From NCBI GenBank assembly GCA_945889495.1, contig CAMDBU010000054.1, positions 1 through 34,507 of the forward strand: a DNA stretch of 34,507 nt, written 5' to 3'. The position numbers and the translations under genes are program-made. This document shows, piece after piece, positions 175 to 26,107 of the stretch. Source of the DNA: Syntrophobacter sp. SbD2. GTDB lineage: Bacteria > Desulfobacterota > Binatia > UBA9968. The notes beneath the pieces are model-generated. The model was given only the letters and a program-made list of their open reading frames with translations, ran no database searches and had not been told where the DNA came from. Every line of letters starts with the position of its first letter. The first letter of the stretch is position 1.

Positions 175-1065
175 TTAAGAAGACGAGATTCCTCGGCGTT
201 GCCTCGGAATGACAGAATCGTGGCGTGATTTGTCCATCTGATTCAGCTGGTCATGGCCCAAGCTCGACGGCAGCGTTGCCAGGTCGGCCTGCACATGTTT
301 GATGCCGGGGAGCGCTTCGATGTGGGTGATCACCTGCTTGGCCGTGACCCATTCCGGCACCGTGCCGGAGACGAAAACATCGCCGCCGTTGGCTTTGACC
401 TCGACGCGCACCTGCGACAAGTCTTCGGCGAGGGCCAGGGTCGCGCGCACCCGCATGGCCAAGGCGAAATCTTCAAAGGCTTGTTTGGACAATGGCGTCA
501 TCTGGTAGTCCGGCGCGTGGGCGGCGGCGACGATCAATTGTTTGGCCGTGGCGACGCTCATATGGCCGAGATTGACCACCAGATCGTAGCGGCTGGCATC
601 GCGCCAGTCGGCGCCGAACATGCCTTGCAACCGACGTGTGCGCGCCTTGTCGACCTCTTCGACGTAGCGCTGGGCGGCCAGTTGGTTGAGGTTCTGGCGC
701 GCGCGCACTTGCTCGATGCGCATTTCGATCGGCGCGGTGAGCAAGACTTTGAGCACATGTTGAAACTTGGGAATCAGCTCATGGCCGAGATGGCCGTGAT
801 AGACGATGCCATGATCGCGGGCGAGCTCGCAGAACGCCGCCTGCAAGGCGATCCGATAGGGATCGAGATTGCGCGTGAAGGTCGCCCACCAGCTTGGTTC
901 GCGTTCGACGATTTCGCTGAGCTTAGTTTCCGGAATGCCGTACTGCAAACTGGCCTGGACTAAAACTTCGCGGTCGACGCTCCCGTAGCCCAACGCTTGT
1001 GCCACGCTATCGGCCAACTCTTCACCGCTCCCCGATGCGCCCTGATAGATGGTGATGATTTGCAT
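175..1065 (-). CDS. Cytidylate kinase-like protein with C-terminal BON domain
   Basis: A 296-residue protein in two parts. Residues 1-185 look like the cytidylate kinase-like family: an N-terminal loop YQGASGSGEELADSVAQALG (residues 7-26) followed by VDREVL matches the family pattern GSGG..IA..LA..LG...DRE. The loop has no P-loop lysine (no GK[ST]), as is common in this family, so real kinase activity is uncertain. Residues about 200-265 look like a BON domain (RVEVKANGGDVFVSGTVPE, then a valine-rich helix and LPGIKHVQADL), a fold usually linked to membrane or envelope binding. The start is fixed by GGGAGGG upstream of the ATG. The last 16 residues or so are encoded by a repeat-like sequence. 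It lies 59 bases downstream of the deaminase and is probably co-transcribed with it. The substrate is unknown. Confidence 0.8.
   Translation of the reverse strand: MQIITIYQGASGSGEELADSVAQALGYGSVDREVLVQASLQYGIPETKLSEIVEREPSWWATFTRNLDPYRIALQAAFCELARDHGIVYHGHLGHELIPKFQHVLKVLLTAPIEMRIEQVRARQNLNQLAAQRYVEEVDKARTRRLQGMFGADWRDASRYDLVVNLGHMSVATAKQLIVAAAHAPDYQMTPLSKQAFEDFALAMRVRATLALAEDLSQVRVEVKANGGDVFVSGTVPEWVTAKQVITHIEALPGIKHVQADLATLPSSLGHDQLNQMDKSRHDSVIPRQRRGISSS
185..215. repeat. Interspersed-repeat-like sequence at the kinase 3' end
   Basis: On the minus strand this reads as a TGTCATTCCGAG...CGAGGAATCTC arrangement. That is typical of short intergenic repeats common in many GC-rich bacterial genomes. 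Here it is translated as the C-terminal tail of the kinase/BON protein (residues RHDSVIPRQRRG), which suggests the original stop codon was lost and the gene now ends inside the repeat. One copy only is visible in the window. Confidence 0.35.
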
Positions 1066-1680: not shown

Positions 1681-1718
1681 AAAAAAGACAAGGGCGCCCC
1701 GCATAGCAGGGCGCCCTT
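1681..1718 (-). terminator. Intrinsic terminator hairpin upstream of the deaminase
   Basis: AAGGGCGCCC (1690-1699) and GGGCGCCCTT (1709-1718) form a perfect 10-bp stem with a 9-base loop. On the minus strand the stem is followed by GTC and then TTTTTT (1686-1681). It lies about 70 bases upstream of the deaminase start codon and at the 3' end of the structured region, so it can either end an independent ncRNA or act as an attenuator for the deaminase operon. Confidence 0.7.
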
Positions 1719-2084
1719 GCGGCGCATATCGCGCGCTCATCTGCGCTAATTATTTTGCCATCATTCCCGCTGCCAACGGCTTGATGGGCTGCGATCCGGA
1801 ACGCACTCACGTGAGTGACCTCCGCGTGTCAGACTACCTACGACCTTCCTCACTGGGTCGCCGAAGCGACGATTTGCCTTCAGGCAATTTAGTTGAGGTC
1901 CGGTTAGTTAACGCCGCTGCGTGAGTTGGGCTCGATCTCCGGGTCGGGAGCCGCCCGCAGACAGCGGGCATACGTGCTTCGGTGGATTTCCGTCCTGCAT
2001 AGCAAAGACCTCCTTTCACACCTTGGGGCTACACTTTAGCTTGCGACTCATTTGCCCCTACGCCTGGCGGCGTTCAGTGAGTCT
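1685..2084 (-). ncRNA. Candidate structured leader or stand-alone ncRNA, family unknown
   Basis: About 400 nt between a minus-strand promoter and an intrinsic terminator, full of short perfect inverted repeats: 1758-1763/1782-1787, 1804-1817 (CACTCACGTGAGTG), 1857-1861/1866-1870 (GTCGC with a UUCG loop on the minus strand), 1874-1878/1883-1887, 1929-1933/1948-1952, 1953-1958/1964-1969 and 2025-2029/2054-2058. No convincing long protein frame occupies it. I compared it by eye with tmRNA, RNase P, SRP, 6S and the common riboswitch cores (TPP, FMN, SAM, cobalamin, guanidine, c-di-GMP) and found none of their invariant sequences. Either it is a regulatory 5' leader of the deaminase-kinase operon or a free ncRNA. 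The sequence shows the hairpins; the RNA identity is inferred. Confidence 0.5.
1908..2000 (-). CDS. Possible 30-residue leader peptide in the structured region
   Basis: A minus-strand ATG at 2000 is preceded, 6 bases upstream, by AAAGGAGGTC (2007-2016), a full match to the consensus Shine-Dalgarno and the best one seen in the window. The frame encodes 30 residues starting MQDGNPPKHVCPLSAGG and ends at TAA (1908-1910). It contains hairpins inside the coding part, as attenuator leaders do, but has no run of one amino acid. Alternatively the purine-rich stretch is a structural element of the RNA and is not translated. Confidence 0.3.
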   Translation of the reverse strand: MQDGNPPKHVCPLSAGGSRPGDRAQLTQRR

Positions 2085-2090
2085 GCCTCC

Positions 2091-2119
2091 GCTCTACGAC
2101 TGCACAAGATGAATGTCAA
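2091..2119 (-). promoter_or_regulatory. Sigma-70-like promoter for the structured leader
   Basis: On the minus strand TTGACA (2119-2114), a 17-base spacer and TAGAGC (2096-2091). The -35 is perfect and the -10 is weak. Expected transcription start is near 2084, just before the hairpin-rich region. Confidence 0.5.
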
Positions 2120-24523: not shown

Positions 24524-26107
24524 ATGGATAATGTTGTGAATGAAGAAGAATTAAAGTTGCATGACGGACATGATGACGAGTTCGATGACGAAGAAGCGAT
24601 GATGGATGAAAACCATCCGATGTGGCGCTCGGAGCGGATCACGCTCAACTCCGTCGGTATCGACATCGGCTCGTCGACTTCCCATTTGATTTTTTCCCGG
24701 CTGACCCTGCGGCGCCAGGGCGTGGCGCTGTCGTCGCGCTTCGTCGTGGTCAACCGCGAGATTATCCATGAGTCGCCGATTCTGCTCACGCCTTACGTCG
24801 ACAAGACCACCATCGACACCAACAAGCTGGGCGATTTTATTCATGAGGCTTACCGGTTGTCGGGCTTGACGCCGGAGGACATCGACACCGGCGCGGTGAT
24901 CGTCACCGGCGAAGCGGTGAAAAAGAAAAACGCCGAGGCGATCGCCGCGCTATTTTCCGCCGAGGCGGGGAAATTTATCTGCGCCACCGCCGGTCATAAT
25001 TTGGAATCGATCCTGGCCGCCTACGGCTCCGGCGCGGTACATATGACCTATCACGAAGGCGGCGACTTCACGGTCATGAACGTCGACATCGGCGGCGGCA
25101 CCAGCAAGATCGCCATCGTCAAAGAGGGGCGGGTGATCGACACCTGCGCCGTCGAAGTGGGCGCGCGGCTGATCGCCATGGATGAAAACGGCGTCATCAC
25201 CCGGCTCGAAGACACCGCGCTCAAGTTCGCCAAGATGGCCGGCATCGAAGGGCTGAAACTGGGCGGGACGATGAGCGAGGAGCAAAAGGACAAGTTCGCG
25301 GAGAAACTGGCCGAGTCGCTGTTTGAAGTCTTGGAACGCGGTAAGCTGTCGCCGGAAGTGGCGGACCTCTTGCTGACGCCGAATATCGACTTCAAGGATC
25401 CGATCCACGCGGTGATGTTTTCGGGCGGGGTTTCCGAATTCGTCTACGGCTACGAAAAGCGCAATCTCGGCGATCTCGGCGCCTACCTGGGCAAAAAAGT
25501 TCGCGCCAAAACTAATCAATTGGCCGGCGGCAAGATTGCGCTGCGGCCGGCCGAAGTGCGCATTCGCGCCACGGTCATCGGTGCGTCGCAGTACACCGTG
25601 CAGGTGAGCGGCAATACGATTTATTTATCCCATCCGGAGCTGCTGCCCTTGCGCAACCTGCAAGTGGTGACGCCGATCTTCGAGCAAAAGGAAACCATCA
25701 GCGTGACCGAAGTGAAAGACGCGGTGGCAAAGGCGCTGGCACGCTTTGACGCCGATGATATTGACCGCGCGGTAGCTTTGGCGATCCGCTGGGAGTTGGG
25801 ACCCTCCTATCCATTGATCCGCACCTTGGCCGAGGGCTTGGTCCAGGCGATGAAGGGCCATATCGACAACGGCCAGCCGCTGGTGTTGGTGTTCGACGCC
25901 GATATCGCCAAGCTGATGGGCAATATCATCGAGCGCGAGCTGATTCCTGGCGCCGGGATTATTTCCATCGACGGCATCGATCTGAAAGATTTCGACTTCG
26001 TCGACATCGGCCAGGAGCTGCCCGACGCCAAGGCGGTGCCGGTGGTGATCAAGTCGTTGATCTTTCGCAACACCGAACATGGCCGCGGCCACCATGTGAA
26101 GCAATAG
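24524..26107 (+). CDS. EutA-type ASKHA ATPase (ethanolamine ammonia-lyase reactivase family)
   Basis: A 527-residue protein with the ASKHA (actin/Hsp70-like) ATPase motifs: GIDIGSSTSHLIFSRL (about residues 41-56), the second phosphate motif NVDIGGGTSKIAIVKEG (about 187-203) and the adenosine-pocket MFSGGVSEFVYGYE (about 296-309). An acidic tail at the N-terminus (EEELKLHDGHDDEFDDEE) is unusual. Overall it resembles EutA, which releases damaged cobalamin from ethanolamine ammonia-lyase. No eutB or eutC or other cobalamin gene is near. Instead it is followed by a small membrane protein, a TPR protein, a ferredoxin and a carboxyltransferase. It may reactivate a different enzyme or have a wholly different client. 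The ATG at 24524 has only a distant AAAGGA upstream. Confidence 0.75.
   Translation: MDNVVNEEELKLHDGHDDEFDDEEAMMDENHPMWRSERITLNSVGIDIGSSTSHLIFSRLTLRRQGVALSSRFVVVNREIIHESPILLTPYVDKTTIDTNKLGDFIHEAYRLSGLTPEDIDTGAVIVTGEAVKKKNAEAIAALFSAEAGKFICATAGHNLESILAAYGSGAVHMTYHEGGDFTVMNVDIGGGTSKIAIVKEGRVIDTCAVEVGARLIAMDENGVITRLEDTALKFAKMAGIEGLKLGGTMSEEQKDKFAEKLAESLFEVLERGKLSPEVADLLLTPNIDFKDPIHAVMFSGGVSEFVYGYEKRNLGDLGAYLGKKVRAKTNQLAGGKIALRPAEVRIRATVIGASQYTVQVSGNTIYLSHPELLPLRNLQVVTPIFEQKETISVTEVKDAVAKALARFDADDIDRAVALAIRWELGPSYPLIRTLAEGLVQAMKGHIDNGQPLVLVFDADIAKLMGNIIERELIPGAGIISIDGIDLKDFDFVDIGQELPDAKAVPVVIKSLIFRNTEHGRGHHVKQ

Follow-up and report, generated by a model that had tools for sequence, protein, structure and literature searches.

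Positions 1681-2119 of the window (the whole analysed stretch of 34,507 nt from Syntrophobacter sp. SbD2) raise the question of whether they encode a leader of the neighbouring nucleoside deaminase gene or an independent RNA, both of which had been proposed by the first-pass annotation. Its observation of a structured RNA was confirmed on the minus strand, where every element of the RNA gene lies (Table 1), and the perfect -35 box that it had reported recurs throughout the family described below. Its terminator stands as a hairpin followed by a T run, with the correction that the stem comprises 15 pairs and not 10 bp. The predicted size of about 400 nt agrees with the 397 nt between the assumed start and the terminator in the window, an interval that spans 274-486 nt across genomes. 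Judging from the position of the promoter, transcription should start near 2084, and letters resembling TAAACN, TAGAGN or TATATA were seen by eye near the -10 place in relatives. A script built to look for a terminator-like hairpin chose one with a T-rich tail in all 23 copies (-19 to -34 kcal/mol), and a GGCGC..GCGCC-type hairpin precedes it in most copies by eye, though it is not visible in G001 (G numbers denote genomes, G000 being that of the window). The comparison showed the RNA to be a putative self-contained gene with promoter-like and terminator-like ends of its own. An ORF of 30 codons with a strong Shine-Dalgarno sequence (2000-1908) and a long-range helix had been missed in the first-pass annotation.

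Folded as a single sequence, the segment is only modestly better than chance (minus strand, z -2.21; plus strand, z -2.31; 2/100 shuffles equally good in each case). Such folding alone is insufficient, and the structured RNA is established by 23 homologous copies with a covarying core and a covarying long-range helix; homologues were gathered, as had been suggested, and compensatory changes were found in both parts.

The RNA was compared with known RNAs. The whole window had no match to Rfam 15 at the gathering score, and the best sub-threshold match of the segment reached 19.2 bits, with 45 needed. The loci of 10 relatives gave no match up to E 1, and those of 10 further relatives gave two matches far below threshold (25.2 vs 114 bits and 20 vs 45 bits). 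These searches bear out the earlier statement, made by eye, that no known RNA family is matched. tmRNA was rejected, with no RF00023 match at 1681-2119, the only match in the genome over the cut-off lying on another contig (C108:576-928, 191.8 bits; the window is C54), and with no tmRNA found in the window by ARAGORN. The 6S RNA model RF00013, which matches only 5/14 control genomes, had no match anywhere in the genome; 6S RNA is presumably unlike this RNA in its layout (ORF, three-way junction). A search of the open-access literature found no description of this RNA.

Homologues were collected in several ways. Blastn gave matches in 11/97 genomes, the window's own included, and a repeat element was rejected as it gave one copy in that genome. 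From the best-conserved part we built a covariance model of 60 positions (R1), which at E 0.01 scored in 19/148 genomes of the class; of its two weakest matches, that in G083 was real and that in G089 was not. A second covariance model built on 20 copies (R2) added the second copy of G012 at E 0.04. Of five matches at E 0.5-4 from a less stringent search of 10 genomes, only that of G002 (E 0.75) had the full layout. A pattern of the Pro-Pro region (see below) occurred in 11/148 genomes, all of which carry family copies, and added G005, while the reversed control pattern occurred in 0/148. Altogether, 23 copies were found in 20/148 genomes of the class, namely in 19/25 genomes of the window's family and in G083 from another family. 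Two copies each were found in G012, G014 and G015 (loci L062, L084 and L092); the paired copies are divergent, and those of G015 and G012 differ also in their 5' elements. Six family genomes, 67-98% complete, yielded no copy (G004, G007, G008, G010, G016 and G018).

Among 395 genomes sampled from the phylum, no further credible copy turned up; the plasmids and phages searched contained no similar DNA, and the viral contigs did not match the pattern. The family may nevertheless be spread more widely, because genuine members (G002, G005) also escape R2 under its strict filters. Eight hits with core-like scores (L040, L059, L060, L061, L096, L098, L099 and L100) were rejected because none has TTGACA or the layout of Shine-Dalgarno sequence, start codon and Pro-Pro plus 10 nt in the 320 nt before the match; a T-rich stretch less than 300 nt downstream in 6/8 of them was given no weight. 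A pattern scan of a wider contig collection gave 16 stretches, of which 9 are family copies and the other 7, from unrelated organisms, are without the layout, two of these having core-like scores of 29 bits. On these sequence comparisons, we regard the RNA as a divergent family of uncultured bacteria that is absent from Rfam 15.

Table 1. Predicted features of the RNA gene, listed in the direction of transcription (window coordinates)
Feature	Position	Strand	Evidence
Promoter -35 box TTGACA	2114..2119	-	Perfect consensus; 23/23 copies
Weak -10-like hexamer TAGAGC	2091..2096	-	17 nt from the -35 box; read from sequence
5' element type A: stem GACTCA/TGAGTC around hairpin CGCC-GCCA-GGCG	2025..2083	-	By eye
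Shine-Dalgarno sequence GGAGGT	2008..2013	-	Similar sequence before the start in 23/23 copies, weakest in G019
Mini-ORF, 30 codons (MQDGNPPKHVCPLSAGGSRPGDRAQLTQRR)	1908..2000	-	Start region to Pro-Pro conserved, stop position not
CCA CCG, conserved Pro-Pro codons	1980..1985	-	Pro-Pro in 23/23 copies
LR5, 5' strand of long-range helix	1957..1969	-	Starts exactly 10 nt past the Pro codons
Three-way-junction core: P3 (GACCT/AGGTC), H3 (TTGCC-TGAA-GGCAA), H4 (GTCGC..GCGAC)	1842..1900	-	Covariance models R1/R2, pair counts
LR3, 3' strand of long-range helix (TTGGCAGCGGG)	1765..1778	-	Pairing with LR5
Short GCGC hairpin ahead of terminator	1722..1738	-	Read from sequence
Intrinsic terminator, 15-pair stem	1688..1720	-	Followed by CTTTTTT to 1681

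The core was examined in two alignments. In A7, whose 21 sequences were fitted to the model and which therefore leans towards the structure, 96.5% of the cells were paired, compared with 28.8-38.8% in the slid-partner controls, and 10/14 pairs had two-sided changes (shuffle mean 3.4; 0/500 shuffles reached 10). In A4, whose 11 sequences were aligned by sequence and cut by hand where the P3 strands were expected, covariation scored 0.219 vs 0.074 in the shuffled alignments, while pairs with two-sided changes were no more numerous than in the shuffles (364/500 as high). By eye, the H3 stems are wholly exchanged in G002 and G005. The G022 copy (L090) has an insertion of about 100 nt in the H4 loop that is foldable by eye, suggesting that this loop tolerates additions.

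LR3 sits 58-89 nt before the end of the terminator (21 copies). When its region was fixed from the terminator alone, the LR5-LR3 duplex reached -20.8 kcal/mol with the copy's own strand vs -18.4 kcal/mol with permuted strands (p 5e-5, 20 non-redundant copies, the near-identical G020, G021 and G024 being left out of such statistics); own pairing was better than the median foreign pairing in 15/20, and a control segment in this terminator-anchored test gave p 0.57. An earlier choice of LR3 by its best own pairing was biased, and two later permutation tests are free of that bias. Three control segments in the earlier of these two tests gave p 0.58, 0.005 and 0.10, the one with 0.005 lying inside the rod described below. 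The permutation tests treat the copies without a model of their tree. Pairs at LR5 position 7 were UA in 9 copies, UG in 5, GC in 2, CG in 2 and AU in 1, with one unpaired, and the helix was predicted at -16.8 to -24.7 kcal/mol in 20/20 non-redundant copies.

The stretches between this helix and the core also pair with each other (own -38.4 vs permuted -28.5, p 5e-5, 18 copies), in a test where the ends of the second stretch were set by the LR3 of best own pairing and where G022 was kept, whose H4 insertion misplaces the core boundary and makes that stretch too long. The body would therefore be one rod, of 158-297 nt among the copies and 205 nt in the window. Taken together, the pairing tests showed a predicted rod with a three-way-junction core, closed by the long-range helix. 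In partition functions, the probability of this helix was above 0.5 in 19/23 copies and below it in the window, G003, G017 and G022; in the window it was 0.33 vs 0.53 for a local hairpin, and forcing the long-range helix cost only 0.1 kcal/mol. That hairpin, GCCCGC/GCGGGC (about 1969-1953), is among the short perfect stems of the first-pass annotation; it is strong in the window as described, but it is a local alternative to the long-range helix. It was our first reading of a roadblock after Pro-Pro, and it was rejected in favour of the long-range helix because the hairpin is weak (above -9.1 kcal/mol) in 7/20 non-redundant copies and the helix lies within the range given above in 20/20.

The mini-ORF has an in-frame start codon in 23/23 copies, ATG in 21 and GTG in both copies of G012, one of these GTG starts having been assigned by hand over a nearer in-frame ATG. 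From the start to the first Pro there are 5 codons in 21 copies, 4 in G022 and 6 in G005, and an acidic residue stands ahead of Pro-Pro in 23/23 copies; the residue directly before Pro-Pro is Thr in 13/23. The first and second positions of both Pro codons are invariant in 23/23 copies and the third positions vary, the first codon being CCA in 13 copies, CCG in 8 and CCC in 2, and the second CCG in 13, CCT in 9 and CCC in 1. Pro-Pro is followed by Gly in 12 copies, Asp in 6, Cys in 3, Glu in 1 and Lys in 1 (the window).

The distance from CCNCCN to LR5 is 10 nt in 23/23 copies. The Pro codons were located by a pattern requiring these 10 nt in 21 copies, and the same rule was applied to the other two; 22/23 copies had first been found by means other than the Pro-Pro pattern (blastn or core models), and G005 is no independent test of the spacing because it was found through that pattern. 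The ORFs have 8-51 codons, and 21-51 in 21/23 copies. The two ORFs of 8 codons (G013 and G015b) have a stop codon right after Pro-Pro-Gly and keep the long-range helix despite this early stop (-23.7 and -16.8, respectively). In these two (L089 and L092), the stop codon stands where their relative G009 has a Gln codon, one transition apart. The stops after Pro-Pro-Gly, the variable ORF ends and the constant 10-nt spacing suggest selection on the peptide as far as Pro-Pro-X and, past that point, on the RNA. The window copy, with Pro-Pro-Lys and an ambiguous fold, is a weak example; G009, G013 and G015 are clearer.

We consider it somewhat probable, from these arrangements, that the locus is a free-standing RNA gene in which a ribosome pausing at Pro-Pro-X of the mini-ORF, against the rod, gates the fold. 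A ribosome would initiate on the mini-ORF, reach Pro-Pro and pause while its P-site is occupied by the second Pro and its A-site, in most copies, by Gly or Asp. Between the A-site codon and the base of the rod there would be 7 nt, which would place the rod close to the mouth of the mRNA channel, where it and the inefficient Pro-Pro-X bond would add to each other's effect. Bond formation (EF-P active, charged tRNA present) would let the ribosome advance and peel LR5 from the helix; failing that, the ribosome would stay parked and the rod would remain folded. An RNA gated by translation in this way would be a sensor-type small RNA. More tentatively, such a stand-alone, non-leader RNA, gated by a Pro-Pro-Gly/Asp stall, might report the state of translation (EF-P activity, charged tRNA, ribosome supply) in trans.

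Several observations bear on the pause itself. The pause-prone Gly or Asp follows Pro-Pro in 18/23 copies, and PPG and PPD are among the EF-P-dependent pause motifs named in PMC6544042 and PMC4140641. The pause table in PMC4140641 lists Gly, Asp, Glu and Lys after Pro-Pro; Cys, found in 3 copies, is missing from the strong pauses of that table. Speaking against a pause, the same paper gives strong pausing in an E. coli efp mutant for only 2.8% of PPX motifs, with a strong influence of upstream residues. PPG at the start of a reporter stalls ribosomes without EF-P (PMC5021804), ribosomes on MgtL are destabilized by acidic residues that come early and together with proline (PMC11282234), and mgtL/mgtP steer their leader RNA by ribosome destabilization or Pro pausing (PMC6460261). 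EF-P is encoded in the window's genome, and its domain PF01132 was matched in 22/25 family genomes, 21 of these matches exceeding the cut-off; two genomes with the RNA, G005 and G017, gave no PF01132 match, from incomplete MAGs or real absence.

Initiation may be gated too, by differing means, since the Shine-Dalgarno sequence is predicted to be mostly paired (unpaired probability at most 0.41) in 18/23 copies, the window (0.62) not being among them, and the 5' elements differ. The type A layout of the window, in which GGGGC can pair with a downstream GCCCC (pseudoknot-like), was seen by eye in 10/23 copies and is replaced or absent elsewhere. By the same inspection, 6 copies have a hairpin loop CCUCC complementary to the Shine-Dalgarno sequence (G005, G011, G013, G015b, G022 and G083), 5 have a hairpin holding that sequence in its loop or stem (G006, G009, G012, G021 and G024), G019 is without a 5' element, and G012b was left unassigned.

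The RNA might instead work in trans as a structured small RNA whose mini-ORF is translated only incidentally, CCNCCN and the start region being kept as RNA contacts. The structured body is the best-supported feature, the ORF ends are not conserved and the window copy has PPK, as this reading would have it, and CCNCCN might serve as an RNA motif instead of as codons. Nevertheless, the Pro codons vary at their third positions and never at the first two, the start is in frame whether 4, 5 or 6 codons lie before Pro-Pro, and every copy has a Shine-Dalgarno-like sequence and an acidic residue before Pro-Pro, and we consider this reading unlikely. Considerably less probable is a small-protein gene with a structured 3' UTR. 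A Shine-Dalgarno-like site with an ORF of 21-51 codons in 21/23 copies would suit such a gene, but the peptide past Pro-Pro-X seems to be conserved only under the constraint of the LR5 strand, and two copies end after 8 codons.

The reading as a cis-acting leader (riboswitch or attenuator) of a deaminase operon was weighed with a map of neighbouring genes around 21 copies (ORFs of at least 70 aa, crude greedy caller, up to four on each side). In the window, a deaminase (PF00383, E 4.3e-24, cytidine deaminase family) lies downstream on the same strand; the distance of about 70 bases after the hairpin given in the first-pass annotation holds with a possible ATG at 1613, and the domain does not require the longer ORF, whose start at 1727 overlaps the terminator. 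In its layout, the mini-ORF would suit a leader peptide whose translation alters the RNA fold. The deaminase family was found near the RNA only in the window and in G003 (2/21 copies), both of the window's genus, and in G003 it is the second ORF downstream with another gene between. Among the 19 mapped copies that have one, the nearest downstream ORF is in sense in 9 and antisense in 10, its family is not common to different genera, and no conserved sense downstream gene was found; one gene cluster recurs at varying downstream places in G003, G017 and G020. These differences between genera and the antisense ORFs argue for a free-standing RNA gene, the other option of the first-pass annotation. 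With no Rfam riboswitch match either, the deaminase-leader reading is largely refuted by the neighbour comparison, and we give it very little credence.

Other neighbours were noted on the same map. A Metal_resist gene (PF13801) at 2244-2834 on the plus strand is divergent from the RNA and shares its intergenic region. In 6/21 copies a gene of this cluster is the closest or second-closest ORF upstream, a synteny among some copies and no constant partner. Downstream of the deaminase, one ORF (175-1065, minus strand) joins a cytidylate-kinase-like domain (PF13189) to a BON domain, and the window also contains a strong EutA match (PF06277, ethanolamine utilisation, E 3e-124) at 24524-26107 on the plus strand.

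The spacing between the Pro codons and the structure resembles that of known frameshift stimulators. Still, a programmed frameshift cassette, in which the Pro codons and the structure 7 nt past the A-site codon would shift the ribosome, is hardly to be expected, as frameshifting at CCC/U-C has been reported (PMC8129111) but the slippery letters are not conserved here, CCA and CCG being the commonest first and second codons.

The preferred reading, a free-standing RNA gated by a pause at Pro-Pro-X, has among its closest known parallels the mgtL/mgtP leaders of Salmonella and E. coli, which likewise have a short acidic or proline-containing ORF in a structured RNA and in which ribosome behaviour (EF-P, EttA, Mg2+) sets the RNA fold, the destabilizing motif of MgtL being EPDP (PMC6460261 and PMC11282234). 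Those leaders precede a regulated transporter gene, whereas this RNA has its own terminator and no conserved downstream gene, and the prolines of mgtL alternate, whereas those here are consecutive. EF-P-dependent PPX sites in coding genes share the Pro-Pro-Gly/Asp found in 18/23 copies, but they belong to long protein genes, while the predicted pause here is at codon 7 in most copies, in a mini-ORF whose spacing from an RNA domain is fixed. tmRNA is a stable structured RNA with a short reading frame; the ORF here, in contrast, has a Shine-Dalgarno sequence and a start codon of its own. SgrS is a dual-function small RNA that is free-standing, with a promoter, a terminator and a small ORF. RyhB/RyhP has the same dual function and the same likeness to our RNA (RyhP is named in the title of PMC5331693). 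What sets this RNA apart from RyhB/RyhP and SgrS is the constant spacing that links its ORF to the fold, together with a peptide that is not conserved past Pro-Pro-X. Stalling mini-ORFs are known from leaders, where they act on the following gene; if our reading of this structured RNA class, which lies outside Rfam 15 and comes from an uncultured lineage, is true, ribosome stalling can also govern an RNA that is the end product of its gene.
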